This document shows positions 31,032-57,276 of a stretch of 64,000 nt of DNA, one piece after another. The notes beneath the pieces were generated by a model. It was given only the letters and a program-made list of their open reading frames with translations, was not told where the DNA came from and did no database searches. Within the stretch, counting starts at the first letter, position 1. Each line of letters starts with the position of its first letter. Made by a program: the position numbers and the translations under genes. The stretch is from Streptomyces sp. ML-6 (GTDB taxonomy: Bacteria; Actinomycetota; Actinomycetes; Streptomycetales; Streptomycetaceae): the NCBI RefSeq assembly GCF_030116705.1, contig NZ_JAOTIK010000001.1:5980501-6044500 (forward strand). The letters are read 5' to 3'.

Positions 31032-31937
31032 CTACAGCCAGCTCGCGAACTCCAGGGTCAGTTCGCCCTCCTGGCGGCGGCCCGCGGCCATCGCCCGGGT
31101 TCCCGACTCCACCGCGCGGAACAGCGTCCAGGCGTGCAGCCGCTCCTGGTCCACGTCCAGCGAGTCGGCGAGCCTGCGCACCCGCCGGCGGGCCGTCACC
31201 GCACCGCCGGAGGACGCGATCAGGTCCTCGACCCGGTCGCGCACCAGGCGCGCCAGGTCGTAGGCCCGCTCACCGACCAGCGGCTCGGGACCGACCGTCA
31301 GCCAGGGCACCCGTTCCCCGGCGAGCACCTTGCTCTGGCGGAAGTTGCCGTGCAGCAGCAGGAGTTCGGGGGAGTGGGCGACCAGCTCCGCACGGGCCGC
31401 GAGCGCCGCGGAGACCATCGGCTCCAGGGCGGGATCGGCAGCCGCGGCGGCGCGCATCGGCCCGACCCGGCGACCGGTCCGTTCGGCGACCGTCTCGAAG
31501 CCGTGCCCGGCCGGCGGCTCGACCCACAGCCGGCGCACCGTGCCCGCCGCCTCCAGCAGCGCCTTGGCCTCCGGCAGCGAACGCAGCGACACCTCGGGGT
31601 GCAGCCGCTCCAGCAGGAGCGCGCCGGGCCCGTCACCGAGCAGCCGCACCGCGCCCCAGCCGTTCCAGTGGGCCAGCGCCGCCCGCTCGGGGCCGGGCGC
31701 GGCCCCGGCCGGGGCCAGCTTCAACGCGGCCGGGGTGCCGTCGGAGCACGTCACCAGCAGCACCAGACTGCTGCGGCCCCCCGGGGCGGCGACCCGCTCC
31801 ACGGTCACCCGCCGCCCGGTGGAGGACAGCGCCTCCTCGATCAGCGCGGGAAGCCGTGCGAGCCAGTCGGCGGCGGCTGCTTCCCCGCACGACTCGCCCA
31901 GCGCTCGCACCAGACGCTGCGGCGGTTCAAAACCCAT
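31032..31937 (-). CDS. APH/hydroxyurea-type phosphotransferase homologue, probable pseudokinase
   Basis: A 301-residue protein with the fold pattern of the streptomycin/aminoglycoside phosphotransferase family: ATP-site lysine in AALKLAP (Lys73), a hinge-like LLLERLHPEVSLRSL and a C-lobe AYDLARLVRDR. The catalytic loop, normally HGDLHxGNVL, reads HGNFRQSKVL (residues 196-205): the catalytic Asp is Asn198 and the Mg-binding Asn is lost. The DFG-equivalent segment, normally AIDPxPLVG, reads TVGPEPLVG with Gly216 in place of Asp. So the fold is kept but catalysis is probably lost. It sits beside the DUF4439/lipoprotein gene pair on the same strand. Confidence 0.85.
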   Translation of the reverse strand: MGFEPPQRLVRALGESCGEAAAADWLARLPALIEEALSSTGRRVTVERVAAPGGRSSLVLLVTCSDGTPAALKLAPAGAAPGPERAALAHWNGWGAVRLLGDGPGALLLERLHPEVSLRSLPEAKALLEAAGTVRRLWVEPPAGHGFETVAERTGRRVGPMRAAAAADPALEPMVSAALAARAELVAHSPELLLLHGNFRQSKVLAGERVPWLTVGPEPLVGERAYDLARLVRDRVEDLIASSGGAVTARRRVRRLADSLDVDQERLHAWTLFRAVESGTRAMAAGRRQEGELTLEFASWL

Positions 31938-39367: not shown

Positions 39368-40260
39368 CATCGCAGAACACGCCGGACGGCCTTGTCATCG
39401 TCGACAAGCCGTCCGGCTTCACTTCGCACGACGTCGTCGCCAAGATGCGCGGCATCGCCCGGACCCGCCGGGTCGGACACGCCGGCACGCTGGACCCGAT
39501 GGCGACCGGCGTGCTCGTGCTCGGCGTCCAGAAGGCCACCAAGCTTCTCGGTCACCTCGCGCTGACCGAGAAGGAGTACCTCGGCACGATCAGGCTCGGC
39601 CAGAACACCATCACGGACGACGCGGAGGGCGAGATCACCTCGTCCACCGACGCGTCCGGGGTGACCCGGGAGGGCATCGACGCGGGTGTCGCGGCCCTGA
39701 CCGGCGCGATCATGCAGGTGCCGTCCAAGGTCAGCGCCATCAAGATCGACGGCAAGCGGTCCTACGCACGGGTGCGGGGCGGCGAGGAGTTCGAGATCCC
39801 GGCCCGCCCGGTGACGATCTCGTCCTTCAACGTCTACGACGTCCGCCACGAGGTCGCCGAGGACGGGACGCCGGTCGTGGACCTGGTCGTCTCGGTCGTC
39901 TGCTCCTCGGGCACGTACATCCGCGCCATCGCCCGGGACCTCGGTGCCGGGCTCGGCGTCGGCGGGCACCTGACCGCGCTGCGGCGCACCCGGGTCGGAC
40001 CGTACGGCCTCGACGCGGCGCGGACGCTCGACCAGCACCAGGAGGAGCTGACCGTGATGCCGGTGGCCGAGGCCGCCGCAGCCGCGTTCCCCCGCTGGGA
40101 CGTGGACGAGAAGCGTGCCAGGCTGCTGCTGAACGGCGTACGGCTGGACATGCCGGCCTTCCCGTCGGAACCGGTCGGGGTCTTCGGACCCGACGGACGG
40201 TTCCTGGTTCTCGTCGAGGAGCAGAAGGGCAAGGCCAAGAGCCTCGCGGTCTTCGCCTGA
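39364..40260 (+). CDS. truB: tRNA pseudouridine(55) synthase
   Basis: A 298-residue TruB that makes pseudouridine 55 in the T-loop of tRNAs. The catalytic aspartate lies in RVGHAGTLDPMATGVLVLG (motif II), with KPSGFTSHDVV (motif I) and KRSYARVRGGEEFEIPARPV further on. The C-terminal half includes an actinobacterial tail. It is translationally coupled to rbfA and followed by three strong hairpins. Confidence 0.95.
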   Translation: MTSQNTPDGLVIVDKPSGFTSHDVVAKMRGIARTRRVGHAGTLDPMATGVLVLGVQKATKLLGHLALTEKEYLGTIRLGQNTITDDAEGEITSSTDASGVTREGIDAGVAALTGAIMQVPSKVSAIKIDGKRSYARVRGGEEFEIPARPVTISSFNVYDVRHEVAEDGTPVVDLVVSVVCSSGTYIRAIARDLGAGLGVGGHLTALRRTRVGPYGLDAARTLDQHQEELTVMPVAEAAAAAFPRWDVDEKRARLLLNGVRLDMPAFPSEPVGVFGPDGRFLVLVEEQKGKAKSLAVFA

Positions 40261-40261
40261 G

Positions 40262-40399
40262 CGGCTGCCGGGGCCCGGCAGCCGGACTTCCGGGGGCCGT
40301 CCCTCCGGCCGCCGTCCGGCAGGCTCCGGACGGCGGCCCGGTGCCGTCACCGGGACGGACTCGACGTGGAGCGGGCGGGACAACCCCGCCCGCTCCACG
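40262..40399 (+). terminator. Three tandem terminator hairpins after truB
   Basis: Stem 1: CGGCTGCCGGG (40262-40272)/CCCGGCAGCCG (40274-40284). Stem 2: GGCCGCCGTCCGG (40307-40319)/CCGGACGGCGGCC (40326-40338). Stem 3: CGTGGAGCGGGCGGG (40365-40379)/CCCGCCCGCTCCACG (40385-40399). All arms match perfectly. The first has a one-base centre and would open to a small loop. Confidence 0.8.
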
Positions 40400-40537
40400 G
40401 TTCCCCGCGATTGCTGTCCACCGGACGCCCATAATTCACCCCAACGAGCAGGCGCTCGGAGTGAAACGGGGGTGCATCAGGGGGCGCTTTTGCTCCAAGT
40501 GGTACACGTGCTGATCATCGGTCCTAACGTTCCGACC

Positions 40538-43500
40538 ATGGGAAGCGGGGACCGGGCAGCGCTGGTACGTATCTGCGATCAGGCCGGTCGGCCGCGGGGG
40601 ACCGGATTCGTCGCGGACGACCGGGGCACGGTACTGACCAGCCACGAGGCGATCGACGGCCTCGACGGACCGGTCCTGCACGGAGCGGACGGCCACAGTC
40701 GCACCCTCGGGGCCGACGACATCACCGCGCTGCCCGAACTCGGGCTCGCCCTGCTGCGCACCCCGGGCCCCGGGGCGCTGGGCGTGGAACCGGTGCCGAT
40801 CACCCTGCGGGAACGGATCGACGCCGGGACGTACGTGACGATCGCCGCCCACGGCTGGCGCGAGGCCCGGGTGCTCGGCACCACCTCCGTGACCTACACC
40901 GCGCGCGGCCGTTGCCACCGGATCGGCGCGGCGCTGGAGCTGGCGCTCGGCACCAACGGCAGGGACGCGCTGCAACTGCGCGGCGCGGCCGTGGGCGGAC
41001 CCGTCCTCGATCCGGAGAGCGGCGCGGTCATCGCCGTACTGGGCACCGCGCTGCGGGCGGAGCACCCCGCGGGCGGCCTCGCCGTACCGCTGCGGGACAC
41101 GGGCACCGAGGGCCCGCTCGACGTACTGCTGCGACGCAACGCGACGAGCGTCCCCGGTTACGGACACGACCTGAACCTCGCGGGCGCCCTGCACCTGACG
41201 GCGACCTCGCTCGGTTCGGCGGGCGGTCCGGGCGACGGGCCCGACCCGGTCGAGCGCCCGGACGTCAGCGCGGAGTTCATGGCCTTCGCGGGACCGGCCG
41301 GGGCCTCGTCCGCGGCGGGCGGCACCGCGGTCGTCCTCGGCCTGGTCGGGGCCCCGGGCACCGGGCGCACCACCGAACTGACGGCGCTCACCACCCGCCG
41401 GGCACGCGGCCCGGTCCCCGCGCCCACCCTCTGGCTGCGCGGCGCCGACCTGCTGGCCGGCGACACCTCGGTCGCCGACGCCGTCACCCGCGCGCTGAGC
41501 AGGGCCGGCCGGATCGTCACCGCCGCCGGGGCCCGGGGCGACATGACCACCGCCACTCCCGAACGGGTGGCCCGGCTGGCCCGGGAGTCCGGAATCCCGC
41601 TGCTCGTGCTGCTGGACGGCCCCGAGGAGATGCCTCCCGCACTGGCCCACGAGACCGCCCGGTGGACCGCCGCCACCGTCGACTGGCTGCGGACCAACGG
41701 CGCACGGCTCGTGATCGCCTGCCGGCCCGAGTACTGGGAGACGGCCGGTGCGCTCTGCCCGCCCGGCGCGCTGCACCGCCCCGCCCGCCCGGCCGGGCGG
41801 CTGCCGTCCGCGATCCGGCTGGGCGACCTCACCGCGGACCAGGCCGAACAGGCCCGGCAGCGGTACGCCATCCCGCCCGGTGCGCTCGCCCCCGGGCACG
41901 ACCGGCACCCGCTCACCCTGCGCCTCCTCGCGGAGGTGCGCGCCGCCATGCCCGGAGAGGTCGCCGGGCAGCCCGACACGGAGGAGGTGTTCGCCGCCCA
42001 CCTGGACCTGATGTGCCTGCGCGTCGCGGTCCGGGTCGCGGCCGCCTCGGGCCGGGCGCCGGGCGGGGGCGCGGTCCGCAGACTGGCCGCCCGGGTGGCG
42101 GGGCAGGTGCACGAGGCGGCACGGCGCTGCCTGGGCCCGGGACAGGGAGAGCTGGACCGGGCGGCGTTCGAGGAGGTCTTCCCCTGGCGCCCCGGCTGGG
42201 CGTCGGCCGTCCTCACCGAGGGCCTGCTCGTCCCGGCGGGGGCCGGTTACCGCTTCGCGCACGAGGAGCTGGGGGACTGGGTCCAGGGCGCCCATCTGGA
42301 CGTGGACGCGGCCCTGCACGCGCTCGTCCACCGATGGCACGCGCGGAAGGAGCCGGACCACGGGGCGCCGCCGGATGGGGCGGGCCCGGGCAGGGGCACG
42401 GCACCGGGGGTGGGCGTGACACCCGGGGCGGGTGCGGCACCGGGGGCGGGTGTGGCGCGGGGTGTGGCAGCCGCCCGCCGGGTGCCGCAGCCGAGGCGGC
42501 CCGCGGGAAGCGGCCGGAGCCCCGTCGCGGGCCGGCCGGGCGGCGGGAGCGACGGGGCGCCCGCACCGGACGCGGGAACGGTCCCCGGGGAGGGGCCCGG
42601 CTCCCCGGGCCCCTCCCCGGGCCCCTCGTCGGGCCCGCGCACCCTGCCCGTACCGCGCCACCGGATCGGTCCGGTGGTCCAGGCACTGCTCCGGCTGGGC
42701 CGCCGACAGGGCCCCGTGGCCCTCTCCCACCAGCTGGCCGACCTCATCGAGGCCCTGGACCGGCTGCTGCCCGGACCTGGGGCCCCGGAACGGGCCGACA
42801 CCGACACCACCGCCAGCACCACCCCCACCACCTCCTCCGGCGGGGACCGGGACACCCCGTGCCGCGACGCCCGGTGGTGGGCCGTCCACCTGCTCTCCGA
42901 GACCCTGATCCAGGTGCCCGACGCCCGGCCGTACCTCGGGGTGCTGCGGCTCCTCGCCGGCCGGGTCGTGCGCGGTGCCGCGCGGGGCGGACCGACGGGC
43001 CCCGGCACGTACGCCGAGTTCGGCCCGTGGTTCTGGCAGCGGCTGACGCTGCCCGAGGCGGACCGGATCGACCTGTTCCGGCGCCTGGTCCCCGCCGACG
43101 GGCCGCCCTGCGGTGATGGCGAGCGGTTCCTGGACGCCGTGGCCCGGCGGCTCGCCGCCCGGCCCCGGACCGTGCAGCCCCTGCTCTGCGGCTGGCTCAC
43201 CGACGAGCGTCCGCTCCCTGCCGGTGACGGTGACGGGGACGCGCTGCGGCCGACCGTGGCCACCGCCGCGCAGGCGCTGCTCCACACCCACCGGGGCCTG
43301 GCCGTCGACGACCTGACCGACGCGCTCGTCGCGGCCCACCACCCCCGGGCCGGGGAACTGCTCACCGCGCTGGCCGAGGACGAGCCCGCCGCCCTGTGCC
43401 GGGCCGTGCACCGCTGGGCCCACGACGGGGACCGGCCCGCCCGCCGCACCGCCGCCGCCACGTACGCGGCGGTCGCCGCGCCCCACGCCGTCCTCGACAC

Positions 43501-44413
43501 CGACCGCGAGCTGCTGCGCGGAGCCGCCCGCGCCCTGCTGGCCCGCCCCGGCGACGCCGCCCTGCACGGGGCCGCGCTCGCCCTCCTCGTACGGGACCCG
43601 CAGAGCCGGGACGGCTGCCTCCCGCAGGCCCTGCGGGCCTTCGTCGAGGGCGAGCCGCGACTGTCCCCGGACGTGCTCGCAGCGGCCCTGCCGTCCCACC
43701 CGGAGCCGGTGCTCGCCGCGTTCCGGGAGCGGCTGACCCGGCCGGACGAGGGCGCGGGCGAGGTGCTGTGCGCCCTGGCCGCGATCGACGCCCCCGCACT
43801 GGCCCTGCACACCGCCGGACTGGTGCGCGCCTACGTCGAGAGCCACCCGGACGACACCGCGCACGCCGCCTCGTACATCCACCGGAGGCTGGAGCACGGG
43901 CCCGCCGCCCGCGCGCTGCTGCTGCCGCTGGTGACCGGGCTGCTGCGGGACCGCCCCGTACCGCCGCCCGTGCGCGGGTCGCTCGCCGCGGTGTTCGCCG
44001 CGCCCGGCAGCCCGGCCTCCGCCCAGCTGCGGGGGGAGCTCCTGGAGGTCCTGCTCGACTTCGAACAGGACACCCGACAGGACCCGGACGTGCTCGCCGC
44101 GCTGCTGCGGGCCGCCGGAACCGGCTCCGGAGGACGCGCTCCGGCCCGTACCCGCGCCCTGGTCCACCGCACCGGAACGCTGCTGCTCCGCACCCCCGGC
44201 GGCGCGGACCGATTCGACCGGCTGCTGGTCGAACTCGCCCGTGACGTACCGGGGTTCGCAGCCCTGGTCACCGGCTGGCTGACCGAGGCCCCGCAGGAAT
44301 GGACACCGCTCATCGGCCCGGACGCCCGACGGACGGTTCGGGAGCTGGGCGGCCCCAAGGCGATGCCGATGCAGGCCGCAGGGCGTGAGCATGGCAGTCT
44401 TAGACCTGCGTAA
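40538..44413 (+). CDS. Large degenerate trypsin-like/P-loop NTPase fusion protein
   Basis: A 1291-residue protein from the ATG at 40538; in-frame GTGs at 40508 and 40472 (the latter with GGAG upstream) are alternatives. Residues ~10-200 resemble a trypsin/V8-type protease (GTGFVADDRGTVLTSHEAID, then AAVGGPVLDPESGAVIAVLG), but the serine site reads AAVGG with Val152, and the Asp of DxALL is replaced (ELGLALL). Residues ~265-480 form a P-loop NTPase: GAPGTGRTT with Arg277 for the Walker Lys, then PLLVLLDG as Walker B. A low-complexity Pro/Gly linker (about 604-705) precedes a long Leu/Ala-rich helical-repeat C-terminus. It lies between truB and ribF. Function unknown. Confidence 0.82.
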   Translation: MGSGDRAALVRICDQAGRPRGTGFVADDRGTVLTSHEAIDGLDGPVLHGADGHSRTLGADDITALPELGLALLRTPGPGALGVEPVPITLRERIDAGTYVTIAAHGWREARVLGTTSVTYTARGRCHRIGAALELALGTNGRDALQLRGAAVGGPVLDPESGAVIAVLGTALRAEHPAGGLAVPLRDTGTEGPLDVLLRRNATSVPGYGHDLNLAGALHLTATSLGSAGGPGDGPDPVERPDVSAEFMAFAGPAGASSAAGGTAVVLGLVGAPGTGRTTELTALTTRRARGPVPAPTLWLRGADLLAGDTSVADAVTRALSRAGRIVTAAGARGDMTTATPERVARLARESGIPLLVLLDGPEEMPPALAHETARWTAATVDWLRTNGARLVIACRPEYWETAGALCPPGALHRPARPAGRLPSAIRLGDLTADQAEQARQRYAIPPGALAPGHDRHPLTLRLLAEVRAAMPGEVAGQPDTEEVFAAHLDLMCLRVAVRVAAASGRAPGGGAVRRLAARVAGQVHEAARRCLGPGQGELDRAAFEEVFPWRPGWASAVLTEGLLVPAGAGYRFAHEELGDWVQGAHLDVDAALHALVHRWHARKEPDHGAPPDGAGPGRGTAPGVGVTPGAGAAPGAGVARGVAAARRVPQPRRPAGSGRSPVAGRPGGGSDGAPAPDAGTVPGEGPGSPGPSPGPSSGPRTLPVPRHRIGPVVQALLRLGRRQGPVALSHQLADLIEALDRLLPGPGAPERADTDTTASTTPTTSSGGDRDTPCRDARWWAVHLLSETLIQVPDARPYLGVLRLLAGRVVRGAARGGPTGPGTYAEFGPWFWQRLTLPEADRIDLFRRLVPADGPPCGDGERFLDAVARRLAARPRTVQPLLCGWLTDERPLPAGDGDGDALRPTVATAAQALLHTHRGLAVDDLTDALVAAHHPRAGELLTALAEDEPAALCRAVHRWAHDGDRPARRTAAATYAAVAAPHAVLDTDRELLRGAARALLARPGDAALHGAALALLVRDPQSRDGCLPQALRAFVEGEPRLSPDVLAAALPSHPEPVLAAFRERLTRPDEGAGEVLCALAAIDAPALALHTAGLVRAYVESHPDDTAHAASYIHRRLEHGPAARALLLPLVTGLLRDRPVPPPVRGSLAAVFAAPGSPASAQLRGELLEVLLDFEQDTRQDPDVLAALLRAAGTGSGGRAPARTRALVHRTGTLLLRTPGGADRFDRLLVELARDVPGFAALVTGWLTEAPQEWTPLIGPDARRTVRELGGPKAMPMQAAGREHGSLRPA

Positions 44414-44456
44414 GAGGCATATCCACGTACACAGGTTCGGGCGAGGAGCGGTCAGA

Positions 44457-45410
44457 GTGCAGCGCTGGCGTGGCTTGGAGGACATCCCCCAGGACTGGGG
44501 ACGCAGCGTCGTCACCATCGGTTCCTACGACGGGGTGCACCGCGGACACCAGCTGATCATCGGGCGCGCCGTGGAGCGGGCCCGCGAGCTGGGCGTGCCG
44601 TCCGTCGTGGTGACCTTCGACCCGCACCCCAGCGAGGTCGTGCGGCCCGGCAGCCACCCGCCGCTGCTCGCCCCGCACCACCGGCGTGCCGAGCTGATGG
44701 CCGAGCTGGGCGTGGACGCGATGCTGATCCTGCCGTTCACCACCGAGTTCTCGCAGCTGGCCCCGGCCGACTTCATCGTGAAGGTGCTCGTCGACAAGCT
44801 GCACGCGCAGCTGGTCATCGAGGGCCCGAACTTCCGCTTCGGCCACAGGGCGGCCGGGAACGTCGAGCTGCTCGCCGAGGTCGGCACGACCCACGACTAC
44901 CGCGTCGAGGTCGTCGACCTGTACGTGAGCGGCGAGGCGGGCGGCGGCGAGCCGTTCTCCTCCACCCTCACCCGGCGGCTGATCGCCGAGGGCGACGTCG
45001 CGGGCGCCGCCGAGATCCTGGGCCGCCCGCACCGGGTCGAGGGCGTCGTCGTGCGCGGCGCGCAGCGCGGCCGTGGGCTCGGCTTCCCCACGGCCAACGT
45101 GGAGACCCTGGTGCACACCGCGATCCCCGCCGACGGCGTCTACGCGGGTTGGCTGGTCGTGGCGGGCGAGGCGATGCCCGCCGCGATCTCGGTCGGCACG
45201 AATCTGCAGTTCGACGCCACGGAGCGGACGGTGGAGGCGTACGCGATCGACCGCGTGGACCTCGACCTGTACGGGCTGCACGTCGCGGTGGACTTCCTCG
45301 CGTACGTGCGCGGGATGCTGAGGTTCGACTCGGTCGACGACCTGCTCGTGGCGATGGCCGCCGATGTGAAGCGGTGCTCCGAACTGGTCGCCGCGTACGA
45401 GCGGGGCTGA
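44457..45410 (+). CDS. ribF: Bifunctional riboflavin kinase/FAD synthetase
   Basis: A 317-residue RibF that phosphorylates riboflavin to FMN and adenylylates it to FAD. The N-terminal nucleotidyltransferase domain has SVVTIGSYDGVHRGHQLIIG and FDPHPSEVV; the C-terminal kinase domain has GAQRGRGLGFPTANVET, VYAGWLVV and DLDLYGLHVAVDFL. The GTG at 44457 is set by GAGGAG at 44443-44448, although the frame stays open upstream. I see no FMN riboswitch in front of it. A strong terminator follows. Confidence 0.95.
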   Translation: MQRWRGLEDIPQDWGRSVVTIGSYDGVHRGHQLIIGRAVERARELGVPSVVVTFDPHPSEVVRPGSHPPLLAPHHRRAELMAELGVDAMLILPFTTEFSQLAPADFIVKVLVDKLHAQLVIEGPNFRFGHRAAGNVELLAEVGTTHDYRVEVVDLYVSGEAGGGEPFSSTLTRRLIAEGDVAGAAEILGRPHRVEGVVVRGAQRGRGLGFPTANVETLVHTAIPADGVYAGWLVVAGEAMPAAISVGTNLQFDATERTVEAYAIDRVDLDLYGLHVAVDFLAYVRGMLRFDSVDDLLVAMAADVKRCSELVAAYERG

Positions 45411-51748: not shown

Positions 51749-54484
51749 TTACTGCTGAGGCGCTGACGGTGGCTGCTGCTGCCATCCGCCGGGCGATGCG
51801 GGGCCGGGCTGCGCGCCCTGGCCGGGCTGCTGCTGATGGGGCATCGGAGGAAGCCCGGCCGGGTTCGCCGGGGGCTGGGCCTGCGGGGGCGGCGACTGCT
51901 GCCAGCCGTTCTGCTGCGCTCCGGGACCGGCGTGCGGCGGGTACGGCTGCGGGGGCTGCTGACCGCCGTACGGCTGCTGCTGGTACGGCTGTTGCGGGGC
52001 GTACTGCTGGCCGGGCATCGGCGGGGCGTACTGCGGGGGCGGCGCGGAGCCGTCCGAGGTCCACAGCCCCTGCTGCTGCTGGGCGCGCGCGAAGTCCTCG
52101 GCGACCAGCGCGGAGAGGTTGAAGTACGCCTCGCGGGTCTTGGGCCGCATCATGTCGAGGTCGACCTCGGCGCCCGCCGCCAGGTGCTCGTCGAACGGCA
52201 CGACGACCACACCGCGGCAACGCGTCTCGAAGTGCTGCACGATGTCGTCGACCTTGATCATCTTGCCGGTCTCGCGGACCCCGGAGATGACCGTGAGGGA
52301 GCGCTGCACCAGCTCCGCGTAGCCGTGCGCCGAGAGCCAGTCCAGGGTGGTGGAGGCACTGGAAGCGCCGTCGACCGACGGGGTCGAGATGATGATCAGC
52401 TGGTCGGCGAGGTCCAGCACCCCGCGCATCGCGCTGTAGAGCAGGCCGGTGCCCGAGTCGGTGAGGATGATCGGGTACTGCTTGCCCAGCACGTCGATGG
52501 CGCGCCGGTAGTCCTCGTCGTTGAACGTCGTGGAGACCGCCGGGTCCACGTCGTTGGCGATGATCTCCAGTCCGGAGGGCGCCTGCGAGGTGAAGCGGCG
52601 GATGTCCATGTACGAGTTGAGGTACGGGATCGCCTGGACCAGGTCGCGGATGGTGGCCCCGGTCTCCCGGCGCACCCGGCGCCCGAGCGTGCCCGCGTCC
52701 GGGTTGGCGTCGATGGCCAGGATCTTGTCCTGCCGCTCGGTGGCCAGGGTCGCGCCGAGGGCGGTGGTCGTCGTGGTCTTGCCGACGCCGCCCTTGAGGC
52801 TGATGACCGCGATCCGGTAGCAGGACAGCACCGGCGTACGGATCAGGTCGAGCTTGCGCTGCCGCTCGGCCTCCTCCTTCTTGCCGCCCAGCTTGAAGCG
52901 GGACACCCCGGACGGGTTGCGGCTGCTCTTCGCCTTCTGCTTGCCCCGGACGAGCCGGTCGGAGGAGAGCTCCACGGCCGCCGTGTACCCGAGCGGGGCG
53001 CCGGGCACGGAACGCTCGCGCTGGTCGTGGGTGACCGGGCTCGGCCAGGCGGCCCCGGTGCGCGGGTCGACGGGCTGGCCCTGGGGCTGCTGGCCCTGGA
53101 GCTGCTGTTCCGGCTGTTGCGGGGTGGGCTGCTGTGGAGGGGCGGCCTGCGCGGGCAGGTGCGGCGCGGCCTGGGCCGGCGGCTGGGGTGCCTGCGCGCT
53201 CTGGGCTGCCTGAGGCGCCTGGGGCGGGAGGGGTGCCTGAGGAGGCTGGGGCACCTGAGGCGGGAGGGGAACGCCCTGCTGCGCGGGCCACTGAGGCGCC
53301 TGGGGCTGCTGAGGTGCCTGGGACTGCTGGGGAGCCTGCGGCGTCGGTGCCTGGGACGCCTGCGGGAACCCGTAGCCACCCTGCGGCGGTGTCTGCGGGA
53401 ACCCGTAACCACCCTGCGGCGTCTGCTGCGCGGCGGGAGGGGTCTGCTGCGGGAACCCGTAGCCACCCTGCGGGGGCTGGGGCGTCCCGGCCCCGGGGAA
53501 CCCGTAACCACCGGCCGCCTGTCCGGCCGGAGCCGGAGCGGGGGCCGGCGTCGGTGCCGGGGCAGGGGGCGAGGCGGGCCACTGCTGGGCGGGCTGCGGC
53601 GCGGCGGGCTGGAAGGCGGGCGGCAGCGGCGGCAGGGCGCCCTGCGGCGGCGGCGCCGGGGCCCAGGGCTGCGGCGCGGCGGGCGGCGGCGGGGTGTCCT
53701 GCGGTGCGGCGGCGGGCACCGCGTCCGAGGGGGCGGAACCCGCCGCTCCGTCGGAGCTCTCCTGCGTACCCCGGGCCGGGACGCCCGGAGCACCGGCGGA
53801 CGCCGGGGCATCGGCCGCGGGACCGGTCGGGGCGGCGCCCTCGGGCGCGCTCGGGGCGGAAACGGGGGCGGGGGCCTCGTCCGTACCCGTACGGTCGCCA
53901 CCGGCGCCGGCCTCCGCGGACCCCGCGCCCGTGAATCCGGCCCCGGCACCGTGAGCGTGTCCCGGACCGTCCGTCTCCCCGGCCCGGTCCGCATTCGCGA
54001 TGCCTGCCCCGAAGTTCCCCTCGATCTCCGCGATCTGCTGCTTCAGCGCAGCCGCCGAGAACCCCGCGGAGCCGTCCTCCACATCGCCGTTCCCGACCCC
54101 GAACGGGGCCGACGTACTGGCGGGCGCCACCGCCTCCGGGGCGGAGGAGGGCGCGGGACCGCTGCCAGCGGCCGGGTTGTCCGCGACCGGGTCGTCCGCC
54201 GGGGCCCGGACCGGAGCCGGGGCGGGCGGCGCCGGAGACCAGTCGGAGTCGGCCCCGTTCCCGGCCGGCGGCGCGGGCACGGACAGCGGTGCGCCGGTGG
54301 GCGGCGGCGGGGCCAGGTGCGCTCCGGCACCGCCCGACGAGTCCCCCGGCGAGTTCTGCGTGTACCAGGCGGGCGGGGTGTAGTCGATGGTGAACTCACC
54401 CGTCATCTCGACGGGCTCCGCGTCGGACGACTCGTCGACGGGCTTGTTCCAGCCCCCGCGCATCTCGTCCCGATCGCCGTTCAC
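51749..54484 (-). CDS. EspI-like type VII secretion-associated MinD-family ATPase with Pro/Gln-rich N-terminus
   Basis: A 911-residue protein. Residues ~1-540 are disordered, rich in Pro, Ala and Gln, with four GGYGFP repeats (about 325-375); residues ~590-850 form a MinD/ParA-type ATPase with the deviant Walker [26 protein letters not shown] and [14 protein letters not shown] Gln/Pro-rich tail follows. The same layout is seen in mycobacterial EspI. The GTG at 54484 is chosen because AGGAGG lies nine bases upstream. Placed beside eccE/eccB, it probably regulates ESX secretion. Confidence 0.87.
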
Positions 54485-54908
54485 TTTGCCTCCTGGTGTG
54501 GTCGAGCACCCTTGTGCGGTCGTGGGTGGGGGGCGACCGTTTCCGTCTGTCCGACCGCCCGGCTCTCCCCCTGGGACACGCATCGCCTGCCCGCAGGTTC
54601 TTCTGCCGCGCCCGGACCCACCCTAATCGTCATGGGGCCCCCTGCGGCAGGCCGTACCGCCGGGCAGAAACTGTCCAGTAGGTCACGGGCCCGCCCGCAA
54701 GCCCCCAGGGTGCGACGGAGCCCATGGAGCGAAGCGGTCAATGTGTTGCATACCGGGGTGGAGTGCATCTGAACGCGATGTGCCGGGCAGGACATGGCCG
54801 GTCGACGCGTATCGCGTCAAGCCGTATCCGTACATTCCGCATGTTCCGCACATGAGGAAAGGGGCGGCCGACATGTGCCGACGGCCACCCCTTCCACCAG
54901 GTCATCGC
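54485..54908. other. Intergenic gap with a hairpin at 54859-54893
   Basis: This 424-bp gap between two minus-strand genes holds no supportable gene. AAGGGGCGGCC (54859-54869) pairs with GGCCACCCCTT (54883-54893) over 11 bp with one mismatch, a likely terminator for the DUF397 gene. The region 54500-54800, with lower GC near 54740, presumably carries the promoter of the MinD-like gene; I find no confident -35/-10 pair. Confidence 0.5.
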
Positions 54909-55142
54909 CTACGCGAGGTCGAACTCACCGTCCCGGGCGCCCAGTACGAAGGCGCGCCACTCGGCCTCGGTGTACCGCAACACGGTCTCCGGGTCCAGCG
55001 ACGAGCGCATGGCGACCGCACCACCGGGCAGATGCGCGATCTCGACCCGCTCCTCGACGTCCTCGGTCCCCGGCGCGCTCAGCCACGTCACGTCCGAGAT
55101 GTCGAGAGCGTAGAGCTCTTCCTTTTCCTGCTGGGTGCCCAT
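54909..55142 (-). CDS. DUF397 family small protein
   Basis: A 77-residue protein. The DUF397 signature is in the C-terminal half: PGGAVAMRSSLDPETVLRYT followed by EAEWRAFVLGARDGEFDL. DUF397 genes in Streptomyces often accompany XRE-family regulators, but none is next to this one. The ATG at 55142 is preceded by AAGGGA. It lies between ESX genes on the same strand; a role there is only positional. Confidence 0.87.
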   Translation of the reverse strand: MGTQQEKEELYALDISDVTWLSAPGTEDVEERVEIAHLPGGAVAMRSSLDPETVLRYTEAEWRAFVLGARDGEFDLA

Positions 55143-55228
55143 GTCGGCGTCCCTTTCGATCGAGCCGTGTCATTCCCCGCACATCTTCCCCGGAAGCGGT
55201 GGCTCCGGGGCCACGAACGGCACAGTAA

Positions 55229-55939
55229 TCAGTCCATCCGGCGAGCGGCGCCCAGCAGACCGCTCTCGACCTCCGTCGCGCCCGTCACCACCCAGTGGTG
55301 CTCCCGGCCCGCCACCCAGAGCGTGACGCCGTCCGCCAGGGTGGGCAGGGCCTCGCTCTCGATCCGGGCGAGCCCCAGGATCCCGCCGATCCGCTCCGCC
55401 TCGTCGGGCGAGACCCGCTGGACGCCCACGAGCGCCGACGTCCGCATCAACCGCGGTGCCACCGGGCTCAGATAGGGCAGCAGCGTCAGCACCGACTGCC
55501 ACGGCGAGGACACCACCCGGCCCCGGGGCGGACGCATGCCGCAGTCCCGCACCACCACCACCGGACTGCCCACGGCCGCCCCGGTCGGCGGAACCCGCCC
55601 CACGTCATGCAGGGACACGCACTCCAGACCGGCCCCCGCGGCCTGCGCCAGCGAGGTCCACACCCCCGGGCGCCCGGTCTCCACCGCCACCCGCGCCCCC
55701 GTGGCCGCCGCCCGCAGCGCCAGCACCTGCGCGGTCCACAACCCCCCGATCAACAGGACGTCGTACGGCACCGGACGATGGAAGCCGATCATCCGCGTGT
55801 GCCCCTCGGCATCGGTACCGAGGATCACACCGTCGTCCCCGACCGGCAACGACAACGCGCCCAGGTCCGCCGCGGCCAGGGTGTGCCCCGCGTGCCGGGG
55901 ACCGCGCAGCCCGCGCCCCGCTCCGGTCCGGATCGTCAT
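55229..55939 (-). CDS. Hypothetical protein coupled to eccE
   Basis: A 236-residue protein I do not recognise. It has no signal peptide; a weakly hydrophobic stretch PYDVLLIGGLWTAQVLALRA (about residues 58-77) is the only membrane-like part. Its start overlaps the eccE stop by four bases, so it is made together with EccE. It could be a detached cytoplasmic domain or accessory factor of the ESX machine. Confidence 0.75.
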   Translation of the reverse strand: MTIRTGAGRGLRGPRHAGHTLAAADLGALSLPVGDDGVILGTDAEGHTRMIGFHRPVPYDVLLIGGLWTAQVLALRAAATGARVAVETGRPGVWTSLAQAAGAGLECVSLHDVGRVPPTGAAVGSPVVVVRDCGMRPPRGRVVSSPWQSVLTLLPYLSPVAPRLMRTSALVGVQRVSPDEAERIGGILGLARIESEALPTLADGVTLWVAGREHHWVVTGATEVESGLLGAARRMD

Positions 55940-57276
55940 CGTGCGCCTCCCAGCGGGAGCGTCGCCAGCACACCGGGCAGCTGCTCCCGGTCCAGCCGCA
56001 CCAGACCGACCTTCGCGTGCCGGGCGGTCTGCTCCAACACCCTTCGTACCCCGACCAGTTCGGTGTCGGAACCACCGGTGACCCGTACGTGACCGGACAC
56101 CGACACATCACCCCGGCGCGCACCGGGCCGCACCGTCAGGCTGAAGGCCGTCGCGTGCGCGGGCACCTGGGTCAGCAACGAGACGAGGCGCGGCAGCGGA
56201 GTCGCCCCCCGGCCCAACTCCGGCCAACGGTCCACCGCGTAGGCGGTGTGCCAACGGTCGTCGCACCGCCACACCCGCGACGTCTCCGCCGTCCGCCGCT
56301 GTGGCGCGGCCCCCTGCTGCCCGGCGCGGGCCGACAGGACGGGATTGGCGCACAAGGACGTGGCCAGGGCCGAGTGTAACTCCTCCTGGTCCAGCACCAC
56401 GGCCCGGAACCCGGCACCGGTGATCCGGCTCGCCACATGGTCCGCGACCCGGACCAGGCAGCGCTGCGCACCGCCGATCCCGCCCCCGCGCGCCTCGACC
56501 GCCTCCCGGCACAGTTCCGGGTCCAGCTTCACCGCCACCCACGTCATCCGCAACGCGGGCGCCCCGGTCCGCTCCTGGAGGGGAACGTAGGAGAGCCGGG
56601 CCGCCGACCGTTCCGGCAGATGCGGCGCCGGAGCGGGGCGCACCTGCTGCACGAGCTGCGCGGACTCCAGCACGATGTCGTCCACCGCGAGGGCGTCGCC
56701 CAGCAGGGCCAGCGGGAAAGCCCGTTCGCCGTGCGCCCTGCGCAGCGACTCGCCACCGGCCTCGACGCGTACGACGGCGGTCAGGAACGTGCCGTCCCCG
56801 ACCATGCCCACCGTGCGGCGGTTCCGGTCGACATGGGGGTACGGGGCGAGGCCCGGCACGCCCTCCGCCACCGGGGCCAGCTGCGGATCCGTGTCCGCGG
56901 CGGGCGCCGCGGCCGCCCGTCCGCGCCCGCGGAGCGCGAGCGTCATCGACACCCACTCCGGCACGGCGCGGCCCCGTCGGCGCACCACCGCGACCAGCAC
57001 CAGCAGACAGGCGATCACACCGGCGGGAACCAGCCAGAAACCGCCGAGCACGGCACCCACCGCGGCGAACGCCAGAGCCGCCTCGACGAGCACCAGCCGC
57101 CGCAGTGCGGGGCCGGGACGGCCGGTCCGGGAAGCCGGGCGCGGAGTGGTCGCCGCGGGGGGATCCACCGGCGGGACGGGCACCGGGATGGCCGGTTCGT
57201 TGCTGCGTTGCCATCGGGAAGAGGAAGGTGATCGGTGGGCGGACCGCCCCGTACGCTCGCGCGTCGCCGAAACCAT
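55936..57276 (-). CDS. eccE: Type VII secretion protein EccE
   Basis: A 446-residue EccE-type protein. After a Pro-rich N-terminus, two adjacent hydrophobic helices (about residues 58-98, LVLVEAALAFAAVGAVLGGF and AGVIACLLVLVAVV) precede a large soluble domain with the family pattern WVSMTLALRGR, HVDRNRRTVGMVGDGTF and a C-terminal VRVTGGSDTELVGVRRVLEQ. EccE sits at the rim of the ESX membrane complex. It is divergent from eccB, with about 190 bp between the starts. The family call rests on layout and neighbours. Confidence 0.8.
   Translation of the reverse strand: MVSATRERTGRSAHRSPSSSRWQRSNEPAIPVPVPPVDPPAATTPRPASRTGRPGPALRRLVLVEAALAFAAVGAVLGGFWLVPAGVIACLLVLVAVVRRRGRAVPEWVSMTLALRGRGRAAAAPAADTDPQLAPVAEGVPGLAPYPHVDRNRRTVGMVGDGTFLTAVVRVEAGGESLRRAHGERAFPLALLGDALAVDDIVLESAQLVQQVRPAPAPHLPERSAARLSYVPLQERTGAPALRMTWVAVKLDPELCREAVEARGGGIGGAQRCLVRVADHVASRITGAGFRAVVLDQEELHSALATSLCANPVLSARAGQQGAAPQRRTAETSRVWRCDDRWHTAYAVDRWPELGRGATPLPRLVSLLTQVPAHATAFSLTVRPGARRGDVSVSGHVRVTGGSDTELVGVRRVLEQTARHAKVGLVRLDREQLPGVLATLPLGGAR

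Follow-up and report, generated by a model that had tools for sequence, protein, structure and literature searches.

Research on bacterial NACHT proteins has dealt with them as antiphage proteins, as described in excerpts of PMC12169576. Trypsin-like domains fused to STAND modules occur in the AVAST and iSTAND systems, according to the portions of PMC12799240 and PMC7159879 that treat them, and in the latter the iSTAND systems are described as almost wholly missing from actinobacteria. The same portion proposes a dominant-negative or peptide-binding role for the inactive trypsin domains found in conflict systems of multicellular bacteria. MamO is a degenerate trypsin-like protein that has lost its protease activity and has two non-catalytic activities (the relevant passages of PMC4794232).

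We analysed a stretch of 64,000 nucleotides from Streptomyces sp. ML-6, referred to here as the window, in which one gene (X) encodes a trypsin-like domain fused to a NACHT module, with both active sites apparently lost. The parts of X are the following.

40538..44413, plus strand: pseudoprotease-NACHT protein X, 1291 residues, ATG start
40538..41152, plus strand: trypsin/HtrA-like pseudoprotease domain, residues 1-205
40643..40648, plus strand: His36-Glu37, where sequence alignment puts Glu37 in the canonical slot of the catalytic His
40742..40744, plus strand: Gly69, catalytic Asp slot (D 201, G 150, A 7, N 6, E 1 of 365)
40991..40993, plus strand: Val152, catalytic Ser slot (counts over 365 sequences are given below)
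41243..42352, plus strand: NACHT-type STAND module with winged-helix part, residues 236-605
41366..41368, plus strand: Arg277 replacing the Walker A Lys (R 383, L 5, A 2, K 0 of 390)
41615..41629, plus strand: Walker B DGPEE, residues 360-364 (Asp360 in 407/409)
42353..42634, plus strand: fast-changing Pro/Gly/Ala-rich linker, residues 606-699
42635..44410, plus strand: C-terminal region, residues 700-1291, perhaps helical, judged by composition

The first-pass annotation had placed this open reading frame between truB and ribF, among housekeeping translation and flavin genes, and NCBIfam agrees: the upstream product is TruB (TIGR00431, E 4e-62), preceded by RbfA, and the downstream one is RibF (NF004160, E 1.2e-119). 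RimP, NusA, IF-2 and an RnpM-like protein (60 bits against a cut-off of 80) were also found upstream. The wider neighbours named by Pfam, in a scan with both libraries covering 19 proteins in total, are a class II tRNA synthetase with an editing domain, DUF4439, DUF503, an oligopeptide-type ABC transporter, a ParA-like protein and EccE. The ParA-like protein, whose N-terminus is long and Pro/Gln-rich, and the EccE gene (type VII secretion) come after the ABC transporter downstream of ribF (51749-57276, minus strand). An aminoglycoside phosphotransferase-like protein is encoded near rimP and nusA (31032-31937, minus strand) and stays below the NCBIfam cut-offs (97.5 versus 325 bits).

X is a real gene, since its NTPase part has a dN/dS of 0.09-0.29 when compared with the five nearest loci. 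The corresponding values are 0.15-0.59 for the protease part, 0.30-0.45 for the C-terminal part and 0.32-0.86 for the linker, and X is under purifying selection. A 1360-residue open reading frame lies on the opposite strand, but the reading of X as an antisense artefact was rejected on the basis of its Pfam match and dN/dS, and a local pseudogene or recent loss is ruled out by the purifying selection and by the occurrence of the site changes throughout the family. Full-length X matches a single place in its own genome. We found no paper on X in the open-licence part of PMC. In S. coelicolor X is presumably SCO5710, and ribF presumably SCO5711. The part of PMC3224560 that counts SCO5711 among orphan proteins says nothing there about X. 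Many relatives are named 'serine protease' or 'trypsin-like peptidase' in the databases, and this annotation is probably misleading.

The trypsin-like fold proposed from the first reading is supported by a Pfam match of Trypsin_2 (PF13365, residues 21-167, E 3.9e-9), the only family above its cut-off in X, and by the double barrel in the predicted structure. Trypsin_2 is also above the cut-off in three of nine more distant relatives, and Pfam gives no PDZ domain in X. We aligned 365 sequence names (359 distinct, window included), and the loss of the catalytic Ser (Val152) and Asp (Gly69) read from the window protein held up; the loss of the protease site is common to all 365 sequences and not specific to the window. 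Residue 152 is V in 152, A in 149, S in 24, I in 20, T in 10, C in 6, R in 3 and G in 1. The catalytic His slot also looks lost by alignment: the HMMER alignment sets Glu37 instead of His36 opposite the HhoA catalytic His ('tshe' over 'TNAH'), and residue 37 is E in 326, Q in 35, R in 4 and His in none of the 365. His36 itself is retained in 359/365, and the offset of one residue could be absorbed in three dimensions.

The window protein has the combination E37/G69/V152/A150. A nominal set of His36, Asp69 and Ser152 is found together in 12 of the 365 sequences, none of which has Gly150, and among the 24 sequences with Ser152 residue 150 is E 12, Q 6, R 2, A 2, V 1 and L 1; a complete His-Asp-Ser triad with the oxyanion-hole Gly is found in 0/365. 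Over 146 diverse rows, Gly153 and Pro155 of the GGP turn are nearly invariant, and Ser, Thr or Cys make up at least 70% of columns 31, 34, 35, 75, 119, 139, 161, 170 and 204 within residues 1-205. An alternative nucleophile was considered and rejected from this alignment, the closest candidate after the GGP turn being Thr/Ser161, nine residues beyond position 152. In the same rows His127 (40916-40918) is retained in 136/146, and His36 and His127 are the sole His columns above 70% in residues 1-205.

Structure predictions covering residues 1-631 and 236-605 give X a NACHT fold with a winged helix, and comparison of the predicted model returns NLRP3, NLRC4, NOD2 and Apaf-1. Foldseek lists Avs4 as well, while no Avs protein is among the 50 VIA-align matches listed. 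With a pTM of 0.42, the model of residues 1-631 gives a tentative placement of the protease part relative to the NACHT part. By Pfam the window fragment scores 11.9 bits against a NACHT cut-off of 26.7. Among 80 fragments, NACHT matches at E up to 10 were obtained in 54 (best 8.7e-4), and AAA_16 (51), AAA_22 (33) and nSTAND5 (22) are about equal to NACHT or stronger. One of nine relatives tested, P0277 from Kitasatospora, exceeds the NACHT cut-off (27.2 versus 26.7 bits).

An NTPase whose Walker A Lys is replaced by Arg277, as annotated at first, is upheld by the alignment and the predicted NACHT fold. The motif GxxxxGK[ST] is absent from X, and the P-loop Lys is missing in 390/390 sequences, so that this change too is not specific to the window. 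The Walker B motif is present as LLVLLDGPEE, with the hydrophobic run, the Asp and the acidic residues. Even with Arg, the P-loop might bind nucleotide or hydrolyse it slowly. A charged residue in the Lys slot is dispensable, because five Streptacidiphilus-like rows (P0256-P0260) have Leu there.

The linker has a mean pairwise identity of 0.32 (residues 605-700), versus 0.73 for residues 240-600. The mildly helix-favouring composition of residues 700-1291 is consistent with the long helical-repeat region first described for the C-terminal half, but the window protein has no Pfam family match there, a PDB profile search gave no firm match, and HEAT was matched in one of 55 sequences, weakly (E 0.11). 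The defence protein model OloA weakly matches residues 923-1252 (43304-44293, E 3e-5); in seven relatives it was matched in three (E 0.007-0.044) and not in the other four.

The best 120 of 2424 database matches of X are from Streptomyces wherever named. Searches with a NACHT profile and with the Streptacidiphilus sequence P0169 add Streptacidiphilus, Kitasatospora and Actinacidiphila, and one relative labelled Actinomadura keratinilytica. The same sites are lost in these relatives, and as far as the alignments go the loss of both sites is old and common to the relatives examined. We compared the best 80 of 510 related stretches in genome contigs, whose titles name Streptomyces and one [Kitasatospora] papulosa. 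TruB precedes and RibF follows X in 77/80 of these loci, and in the other three (L052, L068, L077) the neighbour is missing because the contig ends; taken by itself, truB precedes X in the window and in 79/80 loci, and the remaining locus is cut by a contig end. Over 77 of 81 sequences, the pairwise identities of X correlate at 0.77 with those of TruB and at 0.78 with those of RibF, versus 0.68 between TruB and RibF. With support of at least 0.9 there are 62 splits in the X tree and 30 in the TruB+RibF tree, of which 28 are common; two of the 62 in the X tree are in conflict, and shuffling the labels leaves 0.09 common splits on average. For all splits, 43/74 are common to the two trees. X is inherited together with its neighbours at a fixed chromosomal place. 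It was also considered as a mobile gene and rejected: phage records gave 0 matches, and plasmid records gave one partial match, to residues 863-960 (8% of the protein) on a 2.8-Mb replicon.

We suggest that X is a binding and switching protein, a double pseudoenzyme at a fixed chromosomal place, and we would give this reading roughly even chances. The trypsin-like domain would no longer cut, and its cleft may have become a surface that binds a peptide or protein. The NACHT module keeps its fold, the Walker B acidic residues and the winged-helix part, and its Arg in the P-loop Lys slot makes it likely that nucleotide is held weakly or is not hydrolysed; it could thus act as a conformational switch set by its ligand, or as a scaffold, with the C-terminal half as the likeliest sensor or docking surface. 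As both losses are old and common to the relatives, they speak for binding or signalling rather than catalysis, and the pattern across the family favours a sensor or scaffold over an enzyme, the role that the first-pass annotation had offered. Against this reading stand the 12 sequences with the nominal protease set, the one-residue offset of His36 that the fold might absorb, the possible residual nucleotide use of an Arg P-loop, and the fast change of X, as might be seen in a conflict protein.

We further speculate that a multicellular lineage has domesticated an NLR-like receptor, a trypsin-NACHT protein which lost both centres before the genera split and became a hydrolysis-free allosteric switch beside ribosome and flavin genes, serving growth or development and not only defence. 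This idea is tentative and seems possible rather than probable. X would offer a natural case for asking whether signalling by NACHT modules can do without ATP hydrolysis, and what such modules do outside immunity.

An alternative hypothesis could be that X is a receptor of the NLR/bNACHT kind, encoded on the chromosome and acting in defence or cell death: its C-terminus would sense an invader, the NACHT part would assemble, and an active protease or nuclease from a gene elsewhere would be recruited by the N-terminal domain. The fold matches to NLRP3, NLRC4, NOD2, Apaf-1 and Avs4, the trypsin-STAND fusions of AVAST and iSTAND and the weak OloA match are in line with this, and X has a mean identity of 0.67 against 0.90 for both TruB and RibF and so changes faster than its neighbours. 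However, the fixed place and congruent tree of X argue against it, as do the phage and plasmid searches and the 19 neighbouring proteins of the window, which include no MBL nuclease, MoxR or vWA family; PADLOC on X and its relatives gave weak OloA matches, one weak mad8 match and nothing stronger. We consider this receptor unlikely. The fixed place, the congruent tree and the phage and plasmid searches, together with the conserved promoter-like block before X and the lack of a trypsin-STAND partner among the 19 neighbours, weaken the undescribed conflict system that had been proposed along with the sensor or scaffold.

The block before X (40480-40537) is strongly conserved and promoter-like, and contains three elements, whose counts come from related sequences and are hence not independent.

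40480..40490, plus strand: upstream element GGGGGCGCTTT (pattern GGGGGCGC[CG]?[GT]T in 78/81 upstream regions, shuffled mean 0.4)
40513..40517, plus strand: GATCA (72/81 upstream regions, shuffled mean 7.3)
40524..40530, plus strand: CTAACGT, -10-like, 7 nt before the ATG

The pattern CTA[ACG][CG][GT]T is found at most 260 nt upstream of X in 81/81 regions (shuffled mean 7.2) and 8-16 nt before the assigned start in 71/81 (shuffled mean 0.27). A leaderless start of X is possible because the spacing of the -10-like element fits. Several of the other ten loci have a longer leader with a GGAGG-like site after the same element, and some of these ten starts may be misassigned. Between truB and X, an inverted repeat GTGGAGCGGGCGGG...CCCGCCCGCTCCAC without a T run (40366-40398) is possibly the truB terminator; an Rfam scan of 40200-44700 gave two sub-threshold miRNA-model matches on it, one per strand. 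At the other end of X, a 15-nt element ATGGCAGTCTTAGAC (44391-44405) overlaps the final codons, 66 nt before the ribF start. It is exact in 73/78 loci with ribF, third positions included, while the reading frame beyond it varies (48 in frame with RibF, 13 stop, 12 other), and it therefore resembles a DNA or RNA signal for ribF. Read as a leader open reading frame, it has a TTA codon inside.

These elements bear on another hypothesis, that X regulates or assists its neighbours in ribosome maturation (RbfA, TruB) or flavin supply (RibF). The gene order kept in 77/80 loci and the spacing between the X stop codon and the start of RibF (43 nt in 40/78 loci, 44 nt in 10/78) agree with such a role. 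But long-lived gene order alone is no proof of shared function, and X and ribF may be transcribed separately because X has its own promoter-like block and its 3' end overlaps ATGGCAGTCTTAGAC, an element before ribF that is conserved as DNA. A helper of the neighbours is to our judgement quite improbable. Least probable of all is that one or both sites still work by an unusual route, with the Arg P-loop hydrolysing ATP or His36 reaching the active centre: the near-constancy of His36, Asp360, Gly153 and Pro155 and the 12 nominal triads would suit it, but residues in the Ser and Asp slots change freely, no sequence with Ser152 has the oxyanion-hole Gly and five rows have Leu in the P-loop.

As a binding and switching protein, X may be set beside the known systems as follows. 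MamO and the proposal for inactive trypsin domains, in the passages cited above, would fit X as precedents by analogy; unlike HtrA/Deg proteases and MamO, X has a NACHT module fused in the same chain and no PDZ by Pfam. AVAST type 1 (Avs1) likewise has a trypsin-like domain at the STAND N-terminus, as the part of PMC12799240 on it describes; it has a working protease and an upstream MBL nuclease gene, whereas X has no working site and truB upstream. The iSTAND of the MoxR-vWA ternary systems is an inactive STAND with a possible N-terminal trypsin-like fusion, as the section of PMC7159879 on them states, and differs from X in its MoxR and vWA partners, which are not among the 19 neighbouring proteins. 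With the antiphage bNACHT proteins X shares a central NACHT module in its predicted structure. In general, X resembles the NACHT/NLR STAND NTPases (NLRP3, NLRC4, NOD2, bNACHT) in its NACHT fold with winged helix, its Walker B DGPEE, its N-terminal domain in the effector position and its C-terminal region. Unlike them, it has lost the P-loop Lys in 390/390 sequences, has an N-terminal domain without a working site, and is inherited vertically in a fixed neighbourhood: a NACHT protein at a fixed place in Streptomycetaceae, with protease site and P-loop Lys lost in every sequence examined.
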